Assembly (NCBI GenBank): GCA_029266495.1
Contig: JAQSWS010000006.1
Location: 1 to 64,000 of the forward strand
DNA: 64,000 bases
Direction: 5' to 3'
From: Rariglobus sp.
GTDB lineage: Bacteria > Verrucomicrobiota > Verrucomicrobiia > Opitutales > Opitutaceae
Shown here: piece after piece, positions 9,053 through 26,294 of the stretch
How positions within the stretch are numbered: position 1 is the first letter of the stretch
Layout: each line of letters begins with the position of its first letter
Translations under genes and position numbers: made by a program
Notes under the pieces: generated by a model
Database searches by the model: none
The model's input: the letters and a program-made list of their open reading frames with translations, nothing else
What the model was told of the DNA's origin: nothing

Positions 9053-9589
9053 ATGGGCAAACATCCTCCGCCCGACCTTCTCCCCGTGCTGCTCGCACGA
9101 CGTTCCGAGTTCATCGGATTCCTCGCCGCGCGCCTGAACCATAACCGCGCCGATGCCGAGGATGTCCTTCAACACGGACTCGTCAAAGCCCTCGCCACCG
9201 CCGGCACCCTCCGCGACGACGAGCACCTCCTCCCGTGGTTCTACCAACTGCTCCGCCACGCCGTGGTCGACCACATCCGCTCCCGCCGCGCCGCCGCCGA
9301 TCGAGAACACCGCTGGAGCGACGAAGCCCTTCCCGCGCCCGAAACCACCGCCCGTCTTTGCGCCTGCATCGAGCCGCTCATCGCCACCCTCCCGCCCGCG
9401 CAAGCCACCCTGATCCGTCGCGCCGAACTCGCCGGCGAACCCGTCGCGTCCGTCGCCGCCTCCCTCGGCCTCACCCCCAACGCCGCCAGCGTCGCCCTCC
9501 ACCGCGCCCGCGCGTCCCTCCGCGCCAAACTTCAATCCTTCTGCGGAGACTGCGCCAGCGGCGCCTGCCTCGATTGCGACTGCGAATAA
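9053..9589 (+). CDS. ECF-type sigma factor with C-terminal Cys-rich metal-sensing tail
   Basis: A 178-aa sigma-70-family protein. Region 2 spans about residues 15-85 (ADAEDVLQHGLVKALA, LLPWFYQLLRHAVVDHIRSR) and region 4 spans about 105-160 (LPPAQATLIRRAELAGEPVA, then LGLTPNAASVALHRARASL). It ends FCGDCASGACLDCDCE, a C-x2-C-x4-C-x2-C-x-C tail. Cys-rich C-terminal domains are known in CorE-like ECF factors that sense copper without an anti-sigma factor. No anti-sigma gene is adjacent. Lying between the Cu/Ag pump and the copper ATPase, it is the best candidate for the island's copper-responsive regulator; direct copper sensing is inference. Confidence 0.82.
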   Translation: MGKHPPPDLLPVLLARRSEFIGFLAARLNHNRADAEDVLQHGLVKALATAGTLRDDEHLLPWFYQLLRHAVVDHIRSRRAAADREHRWSDEALPAPETTARLCACIEPLIATLPPAQATLIRRAELAGEPVASVAASLGLTPNAASVALHRARASLRAKLQSFCGDCASGACLDCDCE

Positions 9590-9663
9590 TAGCCCGTCAA
9601 CCCGCGGTTCTTTCTCCGCGTCGCCCGCGTAAGATTCCGGCGACGACTCCGTCTCCCGGGTAA

Positions 9664-11700
<2,037 letters not shown>

Positions 11701-11703
11701 AGC

Positions 11704-11742
11704 CAAACCAAAGTGTCACCTAATAGGTGACACTTTGGTTTG
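11704..11742. repeat. Second copy of the GTGTCACC hairpin, after copA
   Basis: A perfect inverted repeat of 18-bp arms around AAT, starting 4 bp after the copA stop. About 34 bp are identical to the copy at 8938-8972. The two copies bracket the sigma factor and ATPase genes. The identical sequence in two sites rules out chance and suggests either a shared terminator or a mobile palindrome. Confidence 0.85.
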
Positions 11743-11809
11743 CCGCCGCGCGCCTTCCTCCGCGGCCCTTGACGTTGCATCCTCACCGGCTTTTTCGAAA
11801 CTCCGGGAC

Positions 11810-13102
11810 ATGCCGCTGCCCCGCCTCGTGTGCCTCACCCTCGGTCTGCCTGCGCTCGCGCTCGCCGCGGCGACACCGCCACCCGTCGCGCTCAAAGACT
11901 TTCTCGGCCTCTGCGGACACACCGTCCAATTCAAACCCGAACGCTACGAAGGCGTCACGAGCATCGTCCGCGACTACCATCCGGTCTCGTGGGATCTCGC
12001 CGACGACTCTGCAACGCCCGCACCGCTTCCGTTCGCCAAAAACCGCGTCGACTGGGACCACGTCTATGGCGGGTGGCGCAAAGCCGGCCTGCGTGTCCAC
12101 GCCAGCCTCATGTTCTCCGGCTTCCCCGCCGAAAAATGGAAAAATCTCGAGACCGACTCCCACGCCTATGCCCGCGCCTTCGCGAAGATGGCCGGCCCCG
12201 GCGGACGCGACTGGATGGAGGCCGTCGAGATCGGCAACGAACCCGGCCACTACTCCGACGCCGACTACGCCCGCGTCTTCGACGCGATGAGCAAGGGCGT
12301 CCGTGAAGGTGACCCTCAACTCAAAATCGCCACCTGCAACGTCACCGCCGGCAAAAGCAGCCACTACGACAAGCCCATCGAACTCTTCCGCAGCCGCCTC
12401 GATCGCGTGGATATTTTCACCGTCCACACCTACGCGCAGACCGACGGCTGGCCCACCTGGCACCGGACTTTTCCCGAGGATCCCGCCACCCCTTACCTGA
12501 AGGACGTCCGCGCCGTCGTCGCTTGGCGCGATGCCCACGCCAAAGGCAAACCCGTCTGGGTGACCGAATTCGGGTGGGACGCCGCCACCAGCCTGGAAGG
12601 ACGCAAAGGCGACTTCGCCAAATGGGCGGGCAACGTGACCGACACCGCGCAAGCCGCCTACCTGCTCCGCTCCATCCCGCTCTTCCTCGCCGAGGGCGTC
12701 GAACGCGCCCACATCTACTTTTTCGACGACAAGGACGAACCCCAGATGCACGGCGCCGCCGGCATCCTGCGCCACGGCAAACCCAAACCGTCCTGGTATG
12801 CCCTCCGCCAGATGCAACGCCTCCTCGGCGACGCCCGCCTGGAGCGTCTCGACCGCGAGGCCTCGCTCTACACCGCCCGCTGGCGCAAACCCGACGGCAG
12901 CTGCTGGCTCATGCTCTGGACGCCCAAGGCGGACAGCGACACCACCACGCCGCACACGATCACCTCCCGCCCCCTCGGCGAAATCATCCCCATGGCCCTC
13001 ACCGCCACCGATCCCGCCACCCTTCGCACCGCCCCCGCCGGCACCGGCCGCTGGTCGGTCCCCGTCGGCCCCCGCCCGGTCTACCTCCGGGTCGCACCTT
13101 GA
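11810..13102 (+). CDS. Secreted clan GH-A-like glycoside hydrolase
   Basis: A 430-aa protein with signal peptide (PRLVCLTLGLPALALAAA). The frame is open from 11735, but the ATG at 11810 puts the signal peptide at the N-terminus and is preferred. Candidate acid/base Glu is in AVEIGNEPGHYSD (the NEP motif of clan GH-A) and the candidate nucleophile Glu in VWVTEFGWDA. YFFDDKDEPQMHGAAGI and SWYALRQMQRLL follow, as in GH39- or GH5-like barrels, and the end resembles a small beta domain. It probably acts on an extracellular polysaccharide; the family and substrate are not assigned. It stands alone downstream of the copper island. Confidence 0.75.
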   Translation: MPLPRLVCLTLGLPALALAAATPPPVALKDFLGLCGHTVQFKPERYEGVTSIVRDYHPVSWDLADDSATPAPLPFAKNRVDWDHVYGGWRKAGLRVHASLMFSGFPAEKWKNLETDSHAYARAFAKMAGPGGRDWMEAVEIGNEPGHYSDADYARVFDAMSKGVREGDPQLKIATCNVTAGKSSHYDKPIELFRSRLDRVDIFTVHTYAQTDGWPTWHRTFPEDPATPYLKDVRAVVAWRDAHAKGKPVWVTEFGWDAATSLEGRKGDFAKWAGNVTDTAQAAYLLRSIPLFLAEGVERAHIYFFDDKDEPQMHGAAGILRHGKPKPSWYALRQMQRLLGDARLERLDREASLYTARWRKPDGSCWLMLWTPKADSDTTTPHTITSRPLGEIIPMALTATDPATLRTAPAGTGRWSVPVGPRPVYLRVAP

Positions 13103-15363: not shown

Positions 15364-15914
15364 ACCCGCCCGTCCGCCGCGGGTGGCGCATCGGCCTCCG
15401 CATCGCCGAACGCTTCCTCGCCGTCGTTGGTTTCTGCGCGCTCGTTTACCACACCTGCTTCGACTTCACCGTCATCATCTCGGGCTCGATGTCGCCCACC
15501 CTCCAAGGCAACGACGAAGCCACCGGAGACCGCGTCCTCTTCGAAAAAATAACCGGCCGCTTTCGCGCACCCCGCCGCTGGGAAATCCACCAGTTCCACA
15601 CCCCGGAGGGACTCACCGTTGCCAAACGCGTGGTCGGGCTTCCAGGCGAACGCATCTCCCTTCGCGACGGTGTTCTCTGCATCGACGGAAAACCCGTTCC
15701 CATTCCCGCCCATCTCTCGCACCTCCGCTACTACCCTTTCGGCAACCTCGCCGCAGGTCACGAAGTCAACTGCGGGACCGGCTACTACCTTCTAGGGGAC
15801 GATTCCCGCGACTCCATGGACAGCCGCTACGGAGGCGTCCTCGCTCCCGGCCGGTTCACCGCCCGCGCCTGGCTCGTGCTCGGCCCCGGCGCCCGCCGCG
15901 GCCTCGTGCGTTGA
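15360..15914 (+). CDS. lepB: Signal peptidase I (S26 family)
   Basis: A 184-aa protein that begins at a GTG overlapping the upstream stop (GTGA). An upstream open extension to 15288 only overlaps the previous gene and is rejected. One membrane anchor (ERFLAVVGFCALVYHTCF) precedes the catalytic SGSMSPTL (Ser43). The general-base Lys89 lies in AKRVVGLPGE, and GDDSRDSMDSR gives the box E region. This is a short, single-anchor form of signal peptidase I. As a separate copy inside a three-gene operon with a radical SAM enzyme, it may be dedicated to the neighbouring small membrane protein rather than general secretion. Confidence 0.87.
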   Translation: MNPPVRRGWRIGLRIAERFLAVVGFCALVYHTCFDFTVIISGSMSPTLQGNDEATGDRVLFEKITGRFRAPRRWEIHQFHTPEGLTVAKRVVGLPGERISLRDGVLCIDGKPVPIPAHLSHLRYYPFGNLAAGHEVNCGTGYYLLGDDSRDSMDSRYGGVLAPGRFTARAWLVLGPGARRGLVR

Positions 15915-15940
15915 ACCCGATCATGTAGATCGGAGCGGGG

Positions 15941-16798
15941 TCATTTGATCCCCGCGCGTGCATCCGTCGCCACGATGTAACGCTGGAACCACCTGAAGAA
16001 GAGCATCACCGGCAGCGTCGCCAAAACGGCGCACGCCAGGATGTCACCCCATTGCACCGGCGGCTGCGTGAACAAATTCGCCAGGCTCAACTGCACCGTG
16101 CGCGTCTCCCCGCGCGTCGTGATCATCAGCGGCCACAAAAAGTCGCCCCAGTGCGCCAGCAAATCGAGCACCACCACCGTGGCCAGTGCCGGCCGCACCG
16201 CGGGCAACGCCACGTTCCAGAACAACCGCCACGGCCCCGCGCCATCCATCACCGCCGCCTCCTCCAACGTCGCCGGCACCGACAGAAAATGCTGCCGCAG
16301 AAAATAAATATTAAACGCCTTCGCCAGGAACGGCACCGTCAATCCCGCCAGCGCCGCGCCATGACCACCCGTCAGTCCCAGATCGCGCGCCGTGAAAAAC
16401 AACGGCACCGCCAGCACCTCCACCGGCAAAATAATCAAGACGACCACGCCCGCGAACACCCCTTCGCGCCCCCAGAATTCCAGCCGCGCAAACGCATAGG
16501 CCGCCATCGCATTGATCAGCAGCCCGCCCCCGCCGATCACCACGACCTGCATCGTCGAGTTGAGCAACGCGCGTCCCAACCCCGCCCGACGCCACGCATC
16601 CGCATAGTTCTCCAGCGTCCATCCGTCCATGCCCCACCACCCGCCGCCAAAAATCGACGCCTCCTCCCTCAACGACGCCGCCACCATCCACACCAACGGC
16701 GACAAAAACACCACCGCCACCACCAGGCTCACCGCCCACGCCCCGTAGGCCGCGAGCAAACTCGCGCTCCGTCCACCCGTTGCTCCCGTCCGCTTCAT
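15941..16798 (-). CDS. Sugar ABC transporter permease (MalG-type)
   Basis: A 285-aa inner-membrane protein with six predicted membrane segments. The cytoplasmic EAA loop is visible as LEEAAVMDGAGPWRLFWNVA, and the C-terminus has FFRWFQRYIVATDARAGIK, typical of MalG-like permeases. The start at 16798 overlaps the stop of the preceding permease (ATGA), so an upstream extension of the frame to 16879 is rejected. It forms the channel with the MalF-type partner. No ATP-binding subunit gene follows. Confidence 0.9.
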   Translation of the reverse strand: MKRTGATGGRSASLLAAYGAWAVSLVVAVVFLSPLVWMVAASLREEASIFGGGWWGMDGWTLENYADAWRRAGLGRALLNSTMQVVVIGGGGLLINAMAAYAFARLEFWGREGVFAGVVVLIILPVEVLAVPLFFTARDLGLTGGHGAALAGLTVPFLAKAFNIYFLRQHFLSVPATLEEAAVMDGAGPWRLFWNVALPAVRPALATVVVLDLLAHWGDFLWPLMITTRGETRTVQLSLANLFTQPPVQWGDILACAVLATLPVMLFFRWFQRYIVATDARAGIK

Positions 16799-17685
16799 TC
16801 CCGCTCCTCCTTCAACACCCGCCGTTGCACCCACGCGACTCCACCTACCAACACCAAAAACGCCATCGCCGCCGCGCACGCCCGTCCAAGGTCCTGGCTC
16901 ACAAACGTTGTTTCATACACGGACTGAATCAGCGACAGCGTGCTGTTCCCCGGACCGCCCCGCGTCATCAGATACGGCTGCACAAAAATCCGGAACGCCA
17001 GGATCGTCGTCACCGTCACCACAAAAATAATCGTGTTGCGCATCGCCGGCACCACCACGTGCCACACCCGCTGCCACGCCCCCGCCCCGTCGATCTTCGC
17101 CGCATCCAGGAGCTCCTTCGACACGCCCTGCAAGCCCGCCAAAAACACCATCATCTGCAACCCGACACCCTGCCACACCGACATCAGCGCGATCGCCGGC
17201 AGCGCCAGCGCCGGGTCACGTAACCAAGCCTGCGGCGGCACGCCAAACACGCCCAGCGCCGCATTCACCGGCCCCATCTCGCCGCCCTGCGCCGGCTGAT
17301 ACAGCAGCGTCCACAGCACCGCCAGCACCGGCATCGCAACGACGACCGGCACGAAGAACACCACCCGCAACCACTGCCACTCCCGCTCCGGCCGGTTCAC
17401 CCACAACGCCAGAAAGAACGCCCCCGCCGTCTGGGCCGGCACCACCAGCAGCGCGAACATCCACGTATTCAAAAACGCACGACGAAACCGTCCGTCTTCC
17501 CACAGCCCGGTATAGTTCTCCACGCCCACACCCCGCGCCCGTTCCGGCGAAAGCAGATCCGCATTCGTAAAACTCCACACCCCCGCCCGCACCAGCGGCC
17601 AGACCACAAACACCGCCAGCAACGCCAGCGCCGGTGTCAAAAACCATCCCGCACTCCGCCCGCGTTCCTGTTCCCACCGCGTCAT
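16795..17685 (-). CDS. Sugar ABC transporter permease (MalF-type)
   Basis: A 296-aa permease. N-terminal membrane segment LTPALALLAVFVVWPLVRAG, then five more segments and the EAA loop KELLDAAKIDGAGAWQRVWH. NTIIFVVTVTTILAFRIFVQ and YLMTRGGPGNSTL are standard for carbohydrate permeases of the CUT1 class. Start and stop overlap both neighbours by four bases, so solute-binding protein and both permeases are one operon on the minus strand. Confidence 0.9.
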   Translation of the reverse strand: MTRWEQERGRSAGWFLTPALALLAVFVVWPLVRAGVWSFTNADLLSPERARGVGVENYTGLWEDGRFRRAFLNTWMFALLVVPAQTAGAFFLALWVNRPEREWQWLRVVFFVPVVVAMPVLAVLWTLLYQPAQGGEMGPVNAALGVFGVPPQAWLRDPALALPAIALMSVWQGVGLQMMVFLAGLQGVSKELLDAAKIDGAGAWQRVWHVVVPAMRNTIIFVVTVTTILAFRIFVQPYLMTRGGPGNSTLSLIQSVYETTFVSQDLGRACAAAMAFLVLVGGVAWVQRRVLKEERE

Positions 17686-19007
17686 CGCCGTCCCTCCTCG
17701 CGCCGCTCAACCACCGCCTGCACCTCCGCCTCCGCCTGCCTCAAACGCGCCTCCACCTCCGCCCCGCGGGCGATATCCCTCAACGCCGCCGCAAACCGCC
17801 CCGTGAGCGTCGCATAATACGGCGTCCGCGGACGGGCCCGCGCCGCCGTCTCCAGCTGCTCGCGAAACAACCGATACGGCGGCTCCGCATACTCCGGAAA
17901 AAACGTGAACGCCGTCCGCCGCGCCGGCACCGCGCCATTCGCCCGCACGATCGGCACCACACCCGTCTCGACTCCCGTCACCCACTTTACCCAAAGCGCC
18001 GCCAGCTCCGTATTCTTCGCCCGCGCCGACACACCCCACGCCCAGCTCCCGCACGGTGCGACCGCCTTCTCACCGACCCGCGGCAATCGCATCGCTCCCA
18101 ATCGTCCCCCTTTCGCCGCCAGATGCCCGCGCGCCATCCAGTGCCCGCTCCAATCCATCGCGACCTTCCCGTTCCCAAACGGATTCGGGTCCACCGGATC
18201 CGTCGCCGCATACCCTTTCGCAAACACCGTCTGCCATGCCCGCAAACTCCACACGTTTTCCCCGCTCGCCAGCACGCCCCGCACCTCCGCTCCGTCCTTC
18301 GCAATCAACGCCCCTCCCCCGCTCCACACCACCGGGCTAAACGCATACGTGAACCACTCGTCCGCACTTTCATCCATGTGCATCGCCACCGGCTCGATCC
18401 CCGCCGTCTTCAACTTCCCGCACGCCGCCACGAACTCGTCCCACGTCCATCCTTTCGCATCCACGTCCGCCGACACCTCCACGCCGGCCTTCGCCAGCAA
18501 CACGCGGTCATAATACAAGACCACCGCCGAATCGAACGCACCCAACGCATACAGCCGCCCGTCCACCGTCCCTTGCTCCACAATCGTGGGCAGAAAATCG
18601 TCCAACTCCTCCTCCGTCCAAAACCCGCCCAACTCCGCCAGCAATCCCGCCTCCACCCATCGCGCCACCATCGGCCCGTCCAGATCAAACGCATCCGGCA
18701 GGTCCCGCGCCGCCGCCGCGATCGCCAGCTTCTCCGCATACTGAAAATCCGGAAAAAACGTCAGCTCCACCCGCACGCCGCGTTGCGCATGCGCCGCGTT
18801 AAACGCCTCCGCGATTTCCCGCATCGCCCGATTCTCCGCCTCCTGCCCTTGATGCGACCACACGCGTATCACGTTTACCTTCTCCGCTTCATCCTCGCGC
18901 TGTCCCACGCGGCTTCGTCCGCATCCTGACACGCACATCAGCACCACCCACACAGCCACGACCCACATCATCACCGATCTCAAACTGCGACTTCCGCGGG
19001 CCGTCAT
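17682..19007 (-). CDS. Sugar ABC transporter solute-binding lipoprotein
   Basis: A 441-aa extracellular solute-binding protein of family 1. The lipobox is VSGC around residue 29, so it should be a lipoprotein. Typical motifs are NVIRVWSHQGQEAENRAMRE, AEAFNAAH, YAEKLAIAAAARDLPDAFDL, and the hinge LYALGAFDSAVVLYYDRVLL. It captures a sugar or oligosaccharide for the two permeases. The ATPase subunit is missing from the operon, which is common where one shared MsiK-like ATPase serves many importers. The GH16 genes upstream suggest glucan oligosaccharides as substrate, but this is only context. Confidence 0.88.
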   Translation of the reverse strand: MTARGSRSLRSVMMWVVAVWVVLMCVSGCGRSRVGQREDEAEKVNVIRVWSHQGQEAENRAMREIAEAFNAAHAQRGVRVELTFFPDFQYAEKLAIAAAARDLPDAFDLDGPMVARWVEAGLLAELGGFWTEEELDDFLPTIVEQGTVDGRLYALGAFDSAVVLYYDRVLLAKAGVEVSADVDAKGWTWDEFVAACGKLKTAGIEPVAMHMDESADEWFTYAFSPVVWSGGGALIAKDGAEVRGVLASGENVWSLRAWQTVFAKGYAATDPVDPNPFGNGKVAMDWSGHWMARGHLAAKGGRLGAMRLPRVGEKAVAPCGSWAWGVSARAKNTELAALWVKWVTGVETGVVPIVRANGAVPARRTAFTFFPEYAEPPYRLFREQLETAARARPRTPYYATLTGRFAAALRDIARGAEVEARLRQAEAEVQAVVERREEGRR

Positions 19008-19064
19008 GCCTCATTATGAGAACACGCCCCTCCGCCGCAAAGCCTCGTCTCCCTCCAAAAACAG

Positions 19065-19138
19065 ATCGGGGCGCGCCCCGATGGAGCGCGCCCCTGCTTA
19101 ATTCTTCCCCGGTGGAGCGCGTTGACCTCAACGCGCTC
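19065..19138. repeat. Two adjacent palindromic hairpins downstream of the GH16 gene
   Basis: First an 18-bp perfect palindrome ATCGGGGCGCGCCCCGAT (19065-19082), then an inverted repeat GAGCGCGTTGA (19115-19125) / TCAACGCGCTC (19128-19138) with a 2-nt loop. The segment GGAGCGCG also recurs between them. They sit between the GH16 stop and the transporter operon and may serve as terminator; they look like a dispersed-repeat type rather than a classic T-tailed terminator. Confidence 0.7.
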
Positions 19139-19147
19139 GGCCCATCC

Positions 19148-21352
19148 TCAAGGCGACGGCACCGGCGCCACGCGCACGCCGTCCGCCATCACGTAGCCGT
19201 TTGTGCCCGTCGTGCGGAACTTCACCTCCGCGTTCGTCGGCGACAGCGCATACACGCCGAGCAACACCCAGGTGTTGCTGTCCGTCTGCTGATTCACCGT
19301 CACGGTCGAGGTGGCTCCGCTCGTCTGCACGATGTCCACCGGCACGTTGCTCGCGCGATTCGTGTCGGCCGGCCAGCGCGCATACACGAGATAATTTCCC
19401 GCCGTCGCGATCGCCGGTTTAAACGAGAACGTCTTCGTGCCTTTCCCCGTGTTGCCGTCATGCACGTAATTCGTTCCGAGGAACCCGGGTGTGCCCGTCG
19501 AGGCTGTCCACGTGCCGGTGCTCACCACCGACGCCGTGTCCGTGTTGTCCACCGTCGTGTAGCCGGTCGTCGGCGCCGGGATGAACTTCATCGCGTCCGC
19601 AATCACAAACCCGCTCGTGCCGGTCGTGCGGATCGTCGCCCGCGCGTTCACCACGGCGAGGTCATACACGCCGAGCAGGTTCCACTGCGCGCCGTTCGTC
19701 TGCTGGTTCACGGTCACCGTCGAGACCGACAGGTCCGCCGAGCGAATATCGAAGGGCACATTCGTGGCGCGGTTGCTCGCCGCCGCCCAGCGCGCATACA
19801 CCAGATATTCCCCGTCCGCCGTCAGCGGCGGCACAAACGCAAAGGTCTTCGTGCCTTTCGCCGCGTTTTCGTCATGCGCGTAGTTGCTTCCGTAATACCC
19901 GGTGTTCGTCGTCGAGCCGACCCAGCTGCCCACCTTCACCACGTTCGCGGTCGTGGCGTTGTCCACCGTCACCGTGCTCGGCGCCGCCCGCGTGCCGCTC
20001 CACGAACGCACCCAGTCGACTTCCATCACCTGGTTGTGCACCTGCGCGCCCGGATTGTTGCCACCCCAGCCGCCCATCTGCAGCGAGAGGATGAAATACG
20101 CCGGCACGTTGATCACGCGGCTGTTCGCGTATTCCACCGTCTTGATGCCATCGATGTAGAACGCCAGCACCCCCGGCTCCCAATACACGCCATACGTGTG
20201 GAACCCGTCACCGGTCGCCGGATACGTGATGTCGTGCCACTCCGCCGACTTGTGCGATGCGTCGTAACCATCCCAATGCAGTGCGTGCTGCGCCACGTTC
20301 GCGCCCCAGATTCCGAGGCTCTCCATCACATCGACTTCCATGCCGCCGTTGAAGGTCGTGGCGGTGTCGCCCCAGTCATCCTTCACGCCGAGGTCCACCG
20401 CGTTTCCGTAGTTTGTGTTCGCCAGCGTGCCCCAGCGCACCGTTGCGTCCTCGGTCACGGTATAGGCCGTGCCGTTGATCACGAGTTGCGGACGATCCGC
20501 CGCGTTCGCCGCCTCGCTACTGTGAAACGCGAGCAGCTTCGTGCGCATAAACGTGTCCGCCAGCACGAGGCTCACGATCTTGTCGCCCGCCATCTGCTGC
20601 GCCACGTAGTCGGTCACGTCGATCGTGATTTCGCTGCCCGCCGACACCAGGTTGTTCCACTTCTGCGCGACCCAGATCGGATTGGGCACCGGCTTGTTGT
20701 TCCAGGTGATCGTCGACTCGCTCCACGAATCGTCGCCAAGCTTCATCGCCACGAGGTTGTTCGTGCCGCCCGTCTCCATCGACGAGACCTTCACCTTCAA
20801 CGTCGCGCTCGTCACCGTGCCCGGACTCACGCCGGTCAGATCGAACTTCAGATAGGCCCGCCGATACGAGTCTTTCCACCCGTAGCTGCCGCGGTCCGGC
20901 ATCAGCCAGAACGCCGGCCACAATCCGGTGACCGCCGGATATTTGATGCGCGCCTCGATGTAGCCGTGCTGCTGCGCATGATTGAAGAACGTGCTCACCT
21001 CGCCCGTGGCGTAGCTGTAGTTCGTTCCGCTGTAAGTAATCGCACGCTGCTCGGCCTTCAGCTTCAGCTTGCCGTCGGCGACGGTGATATTCTCCGGCGC
21101 CGTTCCCGCCGAACCGGCGATCCCGGCGTGATGCGAACCGAGCCGCCACTTGGTGCCGTCGACCACGGTGCCGTTAAACTCGTCTTCAAACACCGGCGTC
21201 CAGGTTCCGGGCACCAGCGGATCGACCGCATGCAAGGTTCCGCCGAGAGCCAGCGAACCGACCAGGGCCGCCGCGGTGCGTTTCAACCGGCATCGCGGCA
21301 GCAAACGGGCACGACGTAGCGGGTCCACTCCAACAGGGGTATTCATTTTCAT
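19148..21352 (-). CDS. Secreted GH16 beta-glucanase with inserted DNRLRE-like domain and two golvesin-type C-terminal domains
   Basis: A 734-aa secreted enzyme. Signal region to about residue 42; GH16 part one about 48-158 (FEDEFNGTVVDGTKWRLG, GLWPAFWLMPDRG); inserted module about 161-333; GH16 part two about 335-452, starting with the catalytic motif EVDVME (Glu339 nucleophile, Glu344 acid/base) and including HTYGVYWEPGVLAFYIDG. Two golvesin/xanthan-lyase-like beta domains follow (about 462-597 and 600-734, each with KGTKTFxFxP and YARW). The inserted module has the DNRLRE/CBM96 halves in swapped order. It probably cleaves laminarin-type or mixed-link beta-glucan outside the cell. A close paralog is at 22998-26246. 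Confidence 0.88.
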   Translation of the reverse strand: MKMNTPVGVDPLRRARLLPRCRLKRTAAALVGSLALGGTLHAVDPLVPGTWTPVFEDEFNGTVVDGTKWRLGSHHAGIAGSAGTAPENITVADGKLKLKAEQRAITYSGTNYSYATGEVSTFFNHAQQHGYIEARIKYPAVTGLWPAFWLMPDRGSYGWKDSYRRAYLKFDLTGVSPGTVTSATLKVKVSSMETGGTNNLVAMKLGDDSWSESTITWNNKPVPNPIWVAQKWNNLVSAGSEITIDVTDYVAQQMAGDKIVSLVLADTFMRTKLLAFHSSEAANAADRPQLVINGTAYTVTEDATVRWGTLANTNYGNAVDLGVKDDWGDTATTFNGGMEVDVMESLGIWGANVAQHALHWDGYDASHKSAEWHDITYPATGDGFHTYGVYWEPGVLAFYIDGIKTVEYANSRVINVPAYFILSLQMGGWGGNNPGAQVHNQVMEVDWVRSWSGTRAAPSTVTVDNATTANVVKVGSWVGSTTNTGYYGSNYAHDENAAKGTKTFAFVPPLTADGEYLVYARWAAASNRATNVPFDIRSADLSVSTVTVNQQTNGAQWNLLGVYDLAVVNARATIRTTGTSGFVIADAMKFIPAPTTGYTTVDNTDTASVVSTGTWTASTGTPGFLGTNYVHDGNTGKGTKTFSFKPAIATAGNYLVYARWPADTNRASNVPVDIVQTSGATSTVTVNQQTDSNTWVLLGVYALSPTNAEVKFRTTGTNGYVMADGVRVAPVPSP

Positions 21353-21388
21353 AGGGGCAAAGTCACCCTACCGTGATTCGCGTCCAAA

Positions 21389-21434
21389 GTGTTAGCGCAT
21401 CGCCGACCGCAAATATGGCTATCGCTGATTCCGG
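21389..21434 (-). promoter_or_regulatory. Conserved upstream element shared by the two GH16 genes
   Basis: About 46 bp starting GTGTTAGCGCATCGCCGACC (plus strand) and continuing through CTATCGCTGATTCC. The same block, with a few changes, lies at 26295-26340. In both cases it sits 36-48 bp upstream of the GH16 start codon while flanking sequence differs more, so it is a candidate promoter/operator for coordinated control. Confidence 0.5.
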
Positions 21435-21454
21435 CTCGCCGCCGGGCGACCGCC

Positions 21455-22900
21455 TCAGCCGCGGTTTACCTTCACGGCGAGCCGCGCGCTTTCCAGGAGC
21501 TGGATTCGGACGATCCCCGACAAGGTCGATCCGGCGATCGCCATCTCCGCGGCCGCAGGATCCGATTGTATCCATTCGACTGCTACGGATCGCAGTTGTC
21601 CGTCGCGCGTGGAGCCGTCCAGGATCTTGCCGGCTGACTGAAACGCCAACGCAGGGGAGGTCGTTTGCGCGGCGCGGCTGAAGGACAGCAACGCCGCATC
21701 GCGCACGCCGCCCGCCGGAAGCAGCTCCGCCCACGCGGAGGCCGCCGTAATGTCGCTGCCCGTCCAGAGCCCCATCAAACGATCCAGCGCCGGCGCCCTC
21801 GAAACCCCGGGGCATCTCGCCACCCACGCGGCGACCTCCGCGGGCGCCGTATGGCCCCACGCCGAAACCAACGTGAGCACGGCGCCCTCGCGGGCCGTCC
21901 CCTCCGGAAGACCGGACAGAAATCCGGCCGCGGCCCGGGGATCCTTTTGCGCCCACGTGCTCACCAGCGAGCTCAACGCCTGGTTGAGCGCTTCGCCCTG
22001 GGCCAGCGTGCGCGCCCATGCGGATGCCGCGACAGGATCGGCCTCCGCCCATTTGCCCGCGACCATGGCGACCAGTGCGGGATTGTTTTGAGCGGACACA
22101 TAAGCCGACGCGGAGTGCGGATCGCGCTCCGCCCATTGATACGCCATCTGCTCCAGCGCCCGGGTCTTCGTCGCGCCTTCCGGCAACGACTTCATCCATT
22201 CCACGGCCTTGTTCACATCGGCGCCCGACCAGAGCGCGGAGACCTGTCCCAACAGATCGAGCATCTGCGGGTCCACGGTGGCGCCGCCCGGCTCGGTGAC
22301 CACGAGCAGCGACAACAGGCCGGCCGCGGTGGCGGGCGCCGTTCCCGCCCATATGCGAAAAAACGGTCCGTAAAGCTCCTTCCGGCTCGCCTCCGGCAAC
22401 GACTGCTCGGCCCACACAACCATCGCCTCCGGGTCCCTCGCAGCCATCGCCTGCGCCAACACATCCCGGGCCTGTTGATGAAGCTGATCGGCTCCACCGC
22501 GTTTTCCAAACCAGGCAAGCGCCCCCGTGAGATCCCGCCGCGCCCACTCGCTTAGAAGCGCCGCACGGGTCTCGGCCCTCAAATCCCCATCCGCAATGGA
22601 ATCCATCGCCTCCAGCATGTCCGCCATTGCCTCCGAGGTGATCGACGCCGCCCACTCCGACAGCAACCCGGTCCGCCGTTTTTCGTCGGTTCCACGGAGC
22701 GCCGCCTCCCAGGAACCGCGGAATTCGCCAGCGGGAGACTTTGAGGTTTCGACCGGCTCGGGCCGCGAGCCCGCCCCTTCGCCGTCCCTGAAGAGCAAAC
22801 CACCCGAAACCAGCACCGCCGCCAGAGCGGCCGCCAGAGCGGCCGCCGGAACCAGGAGCCGCCTGGAAGGTTTTGCGGCCGTTTGCTTGATAGACTTCAT
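21455..22900 (-). CDS. Secreted or membrane-anchored repeat protein (helical WAxxDPxAA repeats)
   Basis: A 481-aa protein with a basic N-terminus and one hydrophobic segment (residues about 15-37, LLVPAAALAAALAAVLVSGG), so membrane-anchored or exported. The rest is an array of about ten helical repeats of 30-40 residues built on W-A-x2-D-P-x-A-A-x2-W-A-x2-L-P-x-G (examples WAERDPHSASAYVSAQ, WAEADPVAASAWARTLAQG, WAQKDPRAAAGFLSGLPEG). This resembles HEAT/TPR-like solenoids found as uncharacterised proteins in Verrucomicrobiota. It sits between the two GH16 genes on the same strand, so it may assist the glucan system, but no function is known. Confidence 0.7.
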   Translation of the reverse strand: MKSIKQTAAKPSRRLLVPAAALAAALAAVLVSGGLLFRDGEGAGSRPEPVETSKSPAGEFRGSWEAALRGTDEKRRTGLLSEWAASITSEAMADMLEAMDSIADGDLRAETRAALLSEWARRDLTGALAWFGKRGGADQLHQQARDVLAQAMAARDPEAMVVWAEQSLPEASRKELYGPFFRIWAGTAPATAAGLLSLLVVTEPGGATVDPQMLDLLGQVSALWSGADVNKAVEWMKSLPEGATKTRALEQMAYQWAERDPHSASAYVSAQNNPALVAMVAGKWAEADPVAASAWARTLAQGEALNQALSSLVSTWAQKDPRAAAGFLSGLPEGTAREGAVLTLVSAWGHTAPAEVAAWVARCPGVSRAPALDRLMGLWTGSDITAASAWAELLPAGGVRDAALLSFSRAAQTTSPALAFQSAGKILDGSTRDGQLRSVAVEWIQSDPAAAEMAIAGSTLSGIVRIQLLESARLAVKVNRG

Positions 22901-22920
22901 GGTTTGAATCCTGACTTTTC

Positions 22921-22983
22921 GTAGGGCCGTCGCTTGCGACGTGCCTCGCCTGTCGGACGGCGTGGCGCAAGCGCCAGCCCTAC
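22921..22983. repeat. 63-bp inverted-repeat element (GTAGGGC...GCCCTAC)
   Basis: Ends GTAGGGC and GCCCTAC are inverted; inside are two small hairpins, CGTCGCTTGCGACG and TGGCGCAAGCGCCA. A related element with the same left end lies at 47241-47321. It is 20 bp upstream of the repeat-protein start on the minus strand and looks like a non-autonomous dispersed repeat. Confidence 0.75.
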
Positions 22984-22997
22984 ATATAATCAGAGCC

Positions 22998-25900
22998 TCA
23001 CGGAGTCGCCGTGAGGTTGTCGAAGGTCACGGTGGAGAGCACCGTGTTATCGTGGCTGCACACCGGCAGCCCGATGTAGACGTCCGTGCCCATGGTCAGC
23101 GTGACCGAGGTCACCAGAGTCCAGTTGACGCCGTCCACGGACTTGTAGCCGGTGAACGTGCTGCCGGTGCGCGTCAGCCGCACCCAGTTGTTCGGCGCGC
23201 TGTTGAGCGAGCCGCCGGCCACGCTGCTCGTGGCGCTTCCGCTGGTCGTCGCACGCGATTGGAACCGGAACCCGTTGCCCGGCGTCACCGCCATGAGCGC
23301 AAACTTCGATCCGGGTGCCAGGCTTTCACGGATCATCACGCCGGCCTTCGCCCATGTGTTCGTGTTGCCTTGCGAGGCCACCCGCACGCGGATGTCGCAG
23401 TCGCCGCTGGCCGGCATTCGGGCGAAGTGAAACGCATCCGCCGCGCCGGTGATGTCCGCACCGGATCCGGCCACGGTAAAGACGCCGGCCGAGTAACTCG
23501 TCGAGCCGGCGACGCCCGCCGCACCGATGTCGCCGCCGGTCAAGGACCCGGACTGGGCGAACGCAACGAACGCATTCGCCGCGAGCGCCCCGAGGTTGAT
23601 GCGCACTTCGTCGACCAGTCCGCGCAACTCATAGCGGTGCAACTGGCGCGTGGTCGTGCCCGCTCCGAGCAGGTTCGACACGCTGGAGTTGAGATCCGCC
23701 CCGATTGTGCCCGTGCCGATCTGGTTCGCAGCCGCAGGCGACCCGTTGAGGGCGGTCCAGTAGAACTTGAGATTCCCGGCCACGCCGGCCTGACCATCGT
23801 AAGTCACCGCCACGTGATACCAGTCATTGGCCACGAAGGCATGGGTTCCCGTCGTGGGAATCGTCGCCGCGAACGCAGCCGTGCCGTCGTAGAACGACAG
23901 CGTGCCCGCGTTCACCCGGAAGAGGAAACCGCGGATCGAATCGCCGTCGTGCGCGAGGATGTTTTGCTCGCCGGCGGTCGTGCTCAGCGAGACGAACGCC
24001 TCGTAGGTAAACGATCCATCGGTCCCTTGCAGACTCGACTGCGGCACCGCACCGGCCGTGAGCGCACCGCCGCCGACCGACGAGGTCGTCGTGTGGTAGT
24101 TGTTGTCACCCGAGGCGAGCACGTTGAAGGCGCTGCCGTAGCCGGTAAAGGCCGTGGCTCCATAACCGCCCGTCCCGGTGTTGTCCCGGCCGGTCGTGCC
24201 GCCGGTGTTGGTGAAGTCGAGCGCGGACCCGCCCGAACCTTGGTTGACGATGGTCCCGGACGCCGCGTCAAACGTGTAGTGACCGACCATCGGATCCGCG
24301 GGTGGCGGCGGAGCGACGGTGACACTCACGTTGTCGAACACCACGCGCGACGAGGAGCTGACGTTGTGACTGCACACCGGCAGGCCGGCATACACGGTCG
24401 CACCCATGGCGATCGTGGTGGAGCTCACCTGCGTCCAACTCGTGCCATTGGAGGATTTGTAGGCGATGAACGTGCTGCCGCTGCGCACGAGACGCACCCA
24501 GTTGTTCGGCGAGGTGTTGAGACCGCCGCCGGATAACGTGGTGGTGTCGCCACCGGCCGTCGAACGGGACAGGGAGCGGAAACCGTTGCCGGGCGTCACG
24601 ACCATCGTCGCGTGGGGCGAGTTGGGTTGCAGGGTGTCGCGAATCATCACGCCGGCCTTCGCCCAGGTATGCGTGTTGGTTTGAAAAGTCACGCGGGCGC
24701 GGATGTCGAAATCGCCGGTGACGGGCTGCCGCACAAAGTGGAACGCGTCCTCCAGAAGGGCGATGTCGGCCCCCGAACCATAAACGGTGAAAACACCGCC
24801 GGTTTCACTTGCGGAACCCGCTGCATCGACCGTGCCGATATCACCGCCGGTCCAGGGCGCGGGCGGACTGGCCGGAGGTTCGGAGCGCGTGCCGCTCCAG
24901 GAGCGCACGTAATCCACCTCCATGACCTGGTTGTGCACCTGCGGACCGGCGTTGTTGTTGTCCCAGCCGCCCAGTTGCAGCGACAGCAGGAAATAGGCGG
25001 GCACGCTCATCACGCGCGCGTTGACGTGTTCGCCAGTCTTGACGCCATTGATGTAGAACGCGAGCCGGCCGGGCTCCCAATAAACGCCGTAGGTGTGGAA
25101 GCCATCGGGCGAGGCCGCATACGGGATCTTGCTCCAGCTGGTGGTCTTGTGCTGCGTATCATAACCGTCCCAATGCAGCGCGTGGCTCGTGACATTGGGG
25201 CCCCAGATGCCGAGGCTCTCCATGATGTCCACCTCCATGCCGTCGCTGAAAGTCGTCGCGGTGTCGCCCCAGTCATCCTTCACGCCGAGATCGACGGCGC
25301 TGCCGTAATTGTTGTTCGCAAGCGTGCCCCAGCGCACGGTGGCGTCCTCGGTCGCGGTGTAGGCCGTGCCGTTGATCACGAGTTGCGGACGAACCGCCGT
25401 GTTCGTCGCCTCGCTGCTGTGGAAGGCAAGGAGCTTCGTGCGCGCGAACGTGTCCGCGAGAACAAGGCTGACGATCTTGTCACCGGACATCTCCTGCGCG
25501 ACGTAGCCGGTCACATCGATCGTGATCTCCGTGCCCGCCACGACCTGGTTGTTCCAGCGTTGTTCGATCCAGATCGGATTGGGTGCCGGCTTGTTGTTCC
25601 AGGTGAGGGTGGATTCGCTCCACGAGTCCTCGGCGAGCTTCATCACGAGGAGATTGTTCGTGCCGCCGGTATCGAAGGACGAAACCGTGAGCTTGAGCGT
25701 GGCGCTCGTCACCGTGCCCGGGTCGACGCCGGTCAGATCGAATTTGAGGTAGGCGCGGCGGTGGGCGTCCCGCCATCCGTAACTGCCGCGATCCGGCATC
25801 AACCAGAAGGCGGGCCAAAGCCCGGTGACCGCGGGGTATTTGATGCGCGCCTCGATGTAACCGTGTTGCTGGCGGTGATTGAAAAACGTGCTGATCTCGC

Positions 25901-26246
25901 CGGTGGCGTAGTTGTAATTGGTGCCGCTGTAGGCGACGGCTCGCTGCTCGACCTTCATCTTCAACTTGCCGTCGGCGATGGAGACGTTTTCGGGGGCGAT
26001 GCCGCCGGATCCGGCAATGCCGGCGTGATGCGTGCCCAGGCGCCACTTGGTGCCGTCGACGGTCGCACCGTCAAACTCGTCTTGAAACAGCAGCGTCCAC
26101 GAACCGGGCACGGGGGGCACCGGCTGGGACTGCAAGGATCCGGCCAGGGCAAGCGCGCCGATCAAGGCCGGCACACCCCGCAACCGGCCGGGCGGCAGCA
26201 AACGGACGCGACGCAGCAACTCCATTCCGACAAGGGGTATCTTCAT
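22998..26246 (-). CDS. Large secreted GH16 enzyme with inserted DNRLRE-like domain, LamG and two beta-sandwich domains
   Basis: A 1082-aa paralog of the 19148-21352 enzyme; the first ~450 residues are very similar, including signal region, FQDEFDGATVDGTKWRLG, the inserted module (about 160-332) and the GH16 motif EVDIME. The C-terminus differs: two DUF1349-like beta-sandwich domains (each with GDIG, AFHFxR, TWAKAGVMIR, NNWVRL) flank a LamG/concanavalin-type domain (VGHYTFDAASGTIVNQGSGG to VDEVRINLG). Such accessory domains bind carbohydrate. The pair of enzymes thus share a catalytic core but present it with different binding modules. Likely extracellular beta-glucan hydrolase. Confidence 0.87.
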   Translation of the reverse strand: MKIPLVGMELLRRVRLLPPGRLRGVPALIGALALAGSLQSQPVPPVPGSWTLLFQDEFDGATVDGTKWRLGTHHAGIAGSGGIAPENVSIADGKLKMKVEQRAVAYSGTNYNYATGEISTFFNHRQQHGYIEARIKYPAVTGLWPAFWLMPDRGSYGWRDAHRRAYLKFDLTGVDPGTVTSATLKLTVSSFDTGGTNNLLVMKLAEDSWSESTLTWNNKPAPNPIWIEQRWNNQVVAGTEITIDVTGYVAQEMSGDKIVSLVLADTFARTKLLAFHSSEATNTAVRPQLVINGTAYTATEDATVRWGTLANNNYGSAVDLGVKDDWGDTATTFSDGMEVDIMESLGIWGPNVTSHALHWDGYDTQHKTTSWSKIPYAASPDGFHTYGVYWEPGRLAFYINGVKTGEHVNARVMSVPAYFLLSLQLGGWDNNNAGPQVHNQVMEVDYVRSWSGTRSEPPASPPAPWTGGDIGTVDAAGSASETGGVFTVYGSGADIALLEDAFHFVRQPVTGDFDIRARVTFQTNTHTWAKAGVMIRDTLQPNSPHATMVVTPGNGFRSLSRSTAGGDTTTLSGGGLNTSPNNWVRLVRSGSTFIAYKSSNGTSWTQVSSTTIAMGATVYAGLPVCSHNVSSSSRVVFDNVSVTVAPPPPADPMVGHYTFDAASGTIVNQGSGGSALDFTNTGGTTGRDNTGTGGYGATAFTGYGSAFNVLASGDNNYHTTTSSVGGGALTAGAVPQSSLQGTDGSFTYEAFVSLSTTAGEQNILAHDGDSIRGFLFRVNAGTLSFYDGTAAFAATIPTTGTHAFVANDWYHVAVTYDGQAGVAGNLKFYWTALNGSPAAANQIGTGTIGADLNSSVSNLLGAGTTTRQLHRYELRGLVDEVRINLGALAANAFVAFAQSGSLTGGDIGAAGVAGSTSYSAGVFTVAGSGADITGAADAFHFARMPASGDCDIRVRVASQGNTNTWAKAGVMIRESLAPGSKFALMAVTPGNGFRFQSRATTSGSATSSVAGGSLNSAPNNWVRLTRTGSTFTGYKSVDGVNWTLVTSVTLTMGTDVYIGLPVCSHDNTVLSTVTFDNLTATP

Positions 26247-26294
26247 GGTGGGGGTAAGGGGTGAGCGGGCACCTTACTCCGATTTGATCGCCAG

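Follow-up and report, generated by a model that had tools for sequence, protein, structure and literature searches.

Two GH16 genes interrupted by the same module

We analyzed a window of 64,000 nucleotides (positions 1 to 64,000 of contig JAQSWS010000006.1, assembly GCA_029266495.1) from Rariglobus sp., a member of the Opitutaceae. Two reverse-strand genes in the window encode enzymes of glycoside hydrolase family 16 (GH16), each with a carbohydrate-binding module (CBM) of the CBM96/DNRLRE type lodged inside its catalytic domain. Gene 1 (P0001; 19148..21352, reverse strand) encodes a 734-residue protein with a signal peptide, a GH16 domain split by a permuted CBM96, and two Golvesin_C-like domains. 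Gene 2 (P0002; 22998..26246, reverse strand) encodes 1082 residues, in which a GH16 domain split in the same way is followed by DUF1349, LamG_3, and DUF1349-like domains; the entire region of GH16 plus insert occupies 24888..26111. Judged from their sequences, both products are secreted GH16 enzymes, predicted to be endo-glycanases. A preliminary description of this locus had outlined both reading frames and named a set of motifs, all of which we recovered at the same residues and bases.

The same description had proposed that about 170 residues interrupt GH16 between PDRGSYGW and the catalytic motif, and in both genes a 169-residue CBM96/DNRLRE domain indeed separates the PDRGSYGW loop from the strand bearing the catalytic ExDxxE motif. 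In protein 1, the N-terminal half of GH16 (20876..21214, reverse strand, as for all features of both genes) ends in PDRGSYGW (residues 152 to 159; 20876-20899), and the insert (residues 161 to 329) starts directly after this motif. Its first block (20474..20872) carries RRAYLKF (residues 164 to 170; 20843-20863), TWNNKP (216 to 221), and PQLVING (288 to 294, with PQLVIN closing the block), and its second block (20366..20467) contains EDATVRWG (301 to 308), ANTNYG, and GVKDDWGD (322 to 329; 20366-20389). The catalytic ExDxxE motif (residues 339 to 344; 20321..20338) follows 10 residues past the insert, and the C-terminal half of GH16 spans 19991..20353. The catalytic residues are E339, D341, and E344, and the E, D, and E were invariant in alignments of 14 and 18 rows. 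Gene 2 has the same layout: its two insert blocks lie at 25371..25775 and 25263..25364, its ExDxxE motif lies at 25218..25235, and the same motif elements span 25796 down to 25218.

Circular permutation of the insert

The Pfam match to GH16 (PF00722) is broken in two around pieces of CBM96, and these pieces occur in swapped order. The block corresponding to profile positions 35 to 163 (approximately so in gene 1) comes first (E = 1.2e-27 in protein 1 and 7.7e-27 in protein 2) and is followed immediately by the block corresponding to positions 4 to 37 (E = 5e-5 and 9e-5), which is the usual N terminus of a CBM96 domain. The CBM96 match (PF24517) reached 109 bits against a cut-off of 26, and the NCBIfam DNRLRE model (NF033679), in agreement for the large piece, reached 82.7 bits against a cut-off of 34. 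In its native order, the insert matched CBM96 as two separate stretches, with a score of 115.6 bits; once its blocks were exchanged in silico, it gave one continuous match to positions 4 to 162 of 164 (131.6 bits). Rotation also raised the match to PDB entry 8wab from 48.5 to 63.2 bits, covering almost the full chain. The canonical linear order, with the ANTNYG strand first, was absent, and the match became continuous only after rotation; we therefore term the insert a circular permutant derived from CBM96. The rotation tests and E-values rule out chance or misalignment as the source of the swapped order. Both this order and the breakpoints at GVKDDWGD and SYRRAYLKF had been read correctly from the motifs in the preliminary description.

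We modeled the GH16 region together with its insert in AlphaFold2 from the 18-row alignment, obtaining a predicted local distance difference test score (pLDDT) of 89.1 and a predicted template modeling score (pTM) of 0.87. Beta-1,3(4)-glucanases matched this model over its whole span with the insert skipped (VIA-align; Z 26-27), the 2vy0 glucanase aligning at Z 27.1 over 231 residues at 2.6 Å (model 1-411). As modeled, the laminarinase-type GH16 jelly-roll fold is intact around the insert. Because Foldseek matches to the whole model were filled by GH16, the insert was modeled separately (pLDDT 89.3). It adopted the beta-sandwich fold of 8wab and 7vbo (Z 15.2 and 12.9, respectively, over 133 residues), with model residues 5-140 aligned to chain residues 48-185 of 8wab at 1.6 Å. 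Left unpaired were model residues 141-181 (the last ~40 residues, comprising the native first strands) and the ~30 first residues of the 8wab chain, as expected for a circular permutant. In the insert model, the native last strand (135-138) and first strand (141-144) are linked by a two-residue turn.

The native ends were closed by 1 to 2 residues (PQLVI-NG-TAYTV) in 28 of 28 GH16 inserts. Together, profile order, rotation tests, structure prediction, this short closure, and conservation in two or more phyla support circular permutation combined with domain insertion, the interpretation first put forward from the motifs. The same genomes often carry CBM96 in tandem arrays, and the two blocks might be half domains left from a broken array that do not fold as a permuted domain, or else an artifact of assembly. 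We consider this very improbable, since a single compact domain is predicted (pLDDT 89), the residues amount to exactly one domain with its ends closed by 1 to 2 residues, and the same architecture recurs in isolates and in many species. Its presence in isolates (including Cerasicoccus) and in single-contig genomes rules out an assembly artifact.

Occurrence and origins in GH16 and GH74

A search for further GH16 enzymes with this insertion, as the preliminary description had suggested, returned three more in the same genome and dozens of relatives. The genome thus holds five GH16 genes with the permuted insert, on contigs C34 (two), C10, and C108 (two), and it also has several GH16 genes without it. 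In whole-genome samples, full-length permuted forms were present in 4 of the 13 genomes taken from the genus, in 3 of the 200 taken from the family, and in 7 of the 388 taken from the phylum, the last including other families, orders, and classes. Scanning 84,980 species genomes placed the whole architecture at 16 loci, in an Opitutaceae metagenome-assembled genome (MAG), three Cerasicoccus species, other Verrucomicrobiota, a Kiritimatiellae MAG, and Planctomycetota. Scores dropped sharply between the full architecture and uninserted GH16 enzymes (E = 1e-85 to 1e-24). No CBM96 insert in conventional order was seen in this loop among the GH16 enzymes examined. The ratio of nonsynonymous to synonymous change (pN/pS) was 0.12-0.26 in the insert versus 0.13-0.23 in the catalytic part of GH16, a sequence signature of maintenance by purifying selection.

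After removal of the insert, the remaining GH16 cores of the inserted enzymes formed one clade (Shimodaira-Hasegawa-like approximate likelihood ratio test, 97), whose sister group consisted of uninserted enzymes of the same phylum with a ~20-residue loop at that site. By this phylogeny, the GH16 form has a single origin. The reverse event, insertion of GH16 into CBM96, is ruled out, as the uninserted sister enzymes have the ordinary order and the ~20-residue loop there. The tandem CBM96 arrays of these genomes offer a plausible route: the permuted query aligned over their joins, and a slice of an array taken in shifted register is a permuted domain, so such a slice could have been inserted as it stood. 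The permuted insert would then have arisen once in an ancestral GH16, probably as a register-shifted slice. Linkers in ten tandem arrays measured 3 to 8 residues, compared with closures of 1 to 2 residues in the GH16 inserts and 1 to 4 in those of a second host, GH74; this tighter closure is consistent with later trimming.

Several loci came up as candidates and were rejected. L036, L046, and L037 matched the permuted query over its join and are really ordinary or tandem CBM96. L227, L212, and L213 were ruled out as GH16 insertions, only part of the profile being matched; in L227:1655-4351 and L212:577-3249, the CBM96 match starts from profile position ~39 and the first-strand part is undetectable, and these are possibly divergent ordinary domains.

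Inserted GH16 enzymes and their uninserted paralogues from the sister clade are often adjacent (L110, L111, L114, L116, L118, L221, L223, and contig C108 [L026]), which suggests a division of labor.

The second host emerged from a CBM96 search of the same genome, in which long beta-propeller proteins carried swapped CBM96 pieces, with profile positions ~100-162 first and 2-100 second. These proteins are GH74 xyloglucanase-like double propellers (best match, 6p2m, E = 1.9e-52; 6mgj, E = 5e-50). The alignment to 6p2m stops at chain residue 471 (query 536) and restarts at 471 (query 704), which delimits a clean insertion of 167 residues. When rotated, GH74 inserts gave one continuous CBM96 match (110.6 versus 101.8 bits and 92.5 versus 83.6 bits). 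At least six such double propellers are present in the genome, on contigs C50, C86 (L021), C55 (L022), and C63 (L023), those on C50 being L024:4687-8079, 9410-13030, and 15578-19210; GH74-type permuted inserts were also recovered within the genus and from other parts of the phylum. One GH16 chain (L222:1394-3826) and one GH74 chain (L024:4687-8079) combine the permuted insert with an ordinary C-terminal CBM96, so that permuted and ordinary forms within one chain serve as an internal control.

The two hosts differ in where the module was cut: the GH16 inserts are broken at profile positions 32-39, whereas those in the xyloglucanase-like GH74 proteins are broken at ~95-110. In a tree of rotated domains, the GH16 inserts formed one clade (support 97), and the GH74 inserts formed a separate group (support 77 only) near the conventional C-terminal CBM96 of GH74-like proteins. 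The differing breakpoints and an approximately unbiased (AU) test (P = 0.018) rule out a common permuted ancestor, and from the sequences compared here, permuted CBM96 insertion most likely arose at least twice. It is conceivable that CBM96 was recruited at least twice into unrelated catalytic folds, the GH16 jelly roll and the GH74 propeller, each time permuted with a different breakpoint as a means to turn its groove toward the host cleft or merge the two, giving composite active sites; we offer this broader reading tentatively, as a possibility that we do not presently favor.

Ligand groove, candidate role, and neighboring genes

Alginate binding by CBM96 requires Arg36, and Lys27 is a further key ligand residue that is conserved (PMC9971899). 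Both have equivalents in the window proteins: the K of GVKDD occupies the Lys27 position, and the first R of RRAYLKF occupies that of Arg36. The break in the GH16 form falls between these two residues, in the hairpin that carries the ligand groove, and since both lie on the opened hairpin, the GH16 body is joined to the CBM via the groove hairpin. On the enzyme side, the insertion site is the WPX loop, which connects WPA to ExDxxE and in GH16_1 and GH16_3 borders the negative subsites (PMC6827312), in line with the placement beside the active-site cleft proposed at the outset.

These observations suggest the following mechanism. The loop before the catalytic ExDxxE strand would have been replaced by the permuted CBM96/DNRLRE beta-sandwich. 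In this domain, the 1- to 2-residue turn ties the native N-terminal strand to the C-terminal one as a hairpin, and the opening lies instead in the ligand-groove hairpin. Fusion of the opened loop to the GH16 rim may direct the CBM groove toward the cleft on its negative-subsite side, where the module would extend the substrate-binding site or position the polymer for cleavage, in place of acting as a flexibly tethered CBM. A permuted insert of single origin whose groove extends this side of the cleft is, as a whole, the explanation we favor, with moderate confidence. Weighing against it is the fate of the ligand residues across the family: Arg36 is kept in only 12 of 28 GH16 inserts, compared with 33 of 38 conventional CBM96 domains, and a basic residue occupies position 27 in 18 of 28, compared with Lys27 in 31 of 38. 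Going by these alignments, the ancestral uronate groove may have been lost or altered in many members; conservation at both positions is relaxed, so the ligand probably changed or, in some members, was lost.

Such relaxation would also fit an insert that binds no sugar and acts as a structural or specificity-blocking element, shaping the cleft as other long GH16 active-site loops do; the loop before ExDxxE differs in length among GH16 subfamilies and affects specificity (PMC6827312). We regard this as quite unlikely, given that the Asp82 equivalent of the Ca site is kept in 25 of 28 GH16 inserts, that the window copies retain both ligand residues, and that the insert and the catalytic part are under equal selection.

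Doubtful, too, in our judgment, is a module that targets autonomously from a tolerant loop, with its permutation reflecting only the placement of the termini and its groove not cooperating with the active site. Precedents exist in CBM58 of SusG (GH13) and the tandem CBM4 modules of the GH10 xylanase Pm25/Xyn10C, which are likewise inserted in catalytic domains, are largely independent, and on deletion reduce activity on polymeric substrate (PMC5735674, PMC7848910). CBM96 is otherwise appended, even in the same proteins (L222 and L024). Against autonomy, the conserved joins at either end are very short and, together with the two-domain pTM, suggest a rigid arrangement, and the cut falls within the binding groove rather than opposite it. 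The inserted CBM58 and CBM4 modules are not known to depart from the ordinary strand order.

Compared with known CBM96/DNRLRE domains (PDB 7VBO, alginate binding; 8WAB, chondroitin sulfate binding), the window inserts are alike in sequence family, beta-sandwich fold, and possession of Lys27 and Arg36 but differ in being permuted and in lying inside a catalytic domain rather than appended to one; among GH16 inserts at large, the two ligand positions are relaxed in many members. The host enzymes resemble laminarinase-type GH16 endo-beta-glucanases (2vy0, SCLam 6xof, ZgLamA 4bq1) in fold (Z 26-27), ExDxxE, and the WPAFW...W loop and differ from them in the 169-residue insert. CBM36 and CBM60, which are known as appended modules rather than as insertions, were reportedly described by Montanier et al. 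in 2010 as related by circular permutation. In the open-access literature, we found no account of a permuted CBM96, of CBM96 inserted in GH16, or of any CBM inserted in permuted form, and DNRLRE/CBM96 together with circular permutation returned nothing beyond one unrelated reference. CBM insertions and permuted CBMs are thus each known; their combination, fixed in a clade across several phyla and repeated in a second enzyme family, appears to be new. Two cut points in two hosts constitute a natural experiment on permutation enabling insertion beside an active site, and annotation that lists partial CBM96 and GH16 domains separately overlooks this architecture.

The nearest PDB sequences are beta-1,3(4)-glucanases, and the match to the GH16_17 kappa-carrageenase equivalog (NF041449) reached 54.8 bits against a cut-off of 350. 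Genes near inserted GH16 enzymes include GH42 (own genome), GH1 (Cerasicoccus), a sulfatase (L111), and GH1 plus AraC fusions. Beta-glucans of the type cleaved by the nearest solved enzymes are candidate substrates, and the GH42, GH1, and sulfatase neighbors leave beta-galactans possible.

Within the window, sugar ABC-transporter genes (two permeases and a solute-binding protein; 15941..19007, reverse strand) adjoin gene 1 downstream and are a plausible uptake partner. Domains related to the two of Golvesin_C type at the C terminus of protein 1 (19169-19950, reverse strand) recur in many further proteins encoded by the genome. A reading frame for a 481-residue protein with no Pfam match (21455-22900, reverse strand) separates the two GH16 genes. 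Very long antisense reading frames cover the GH16 genes (19016-21319 and 24612-26264, forward strand) and most likely result simply from GC-rich codon usage.

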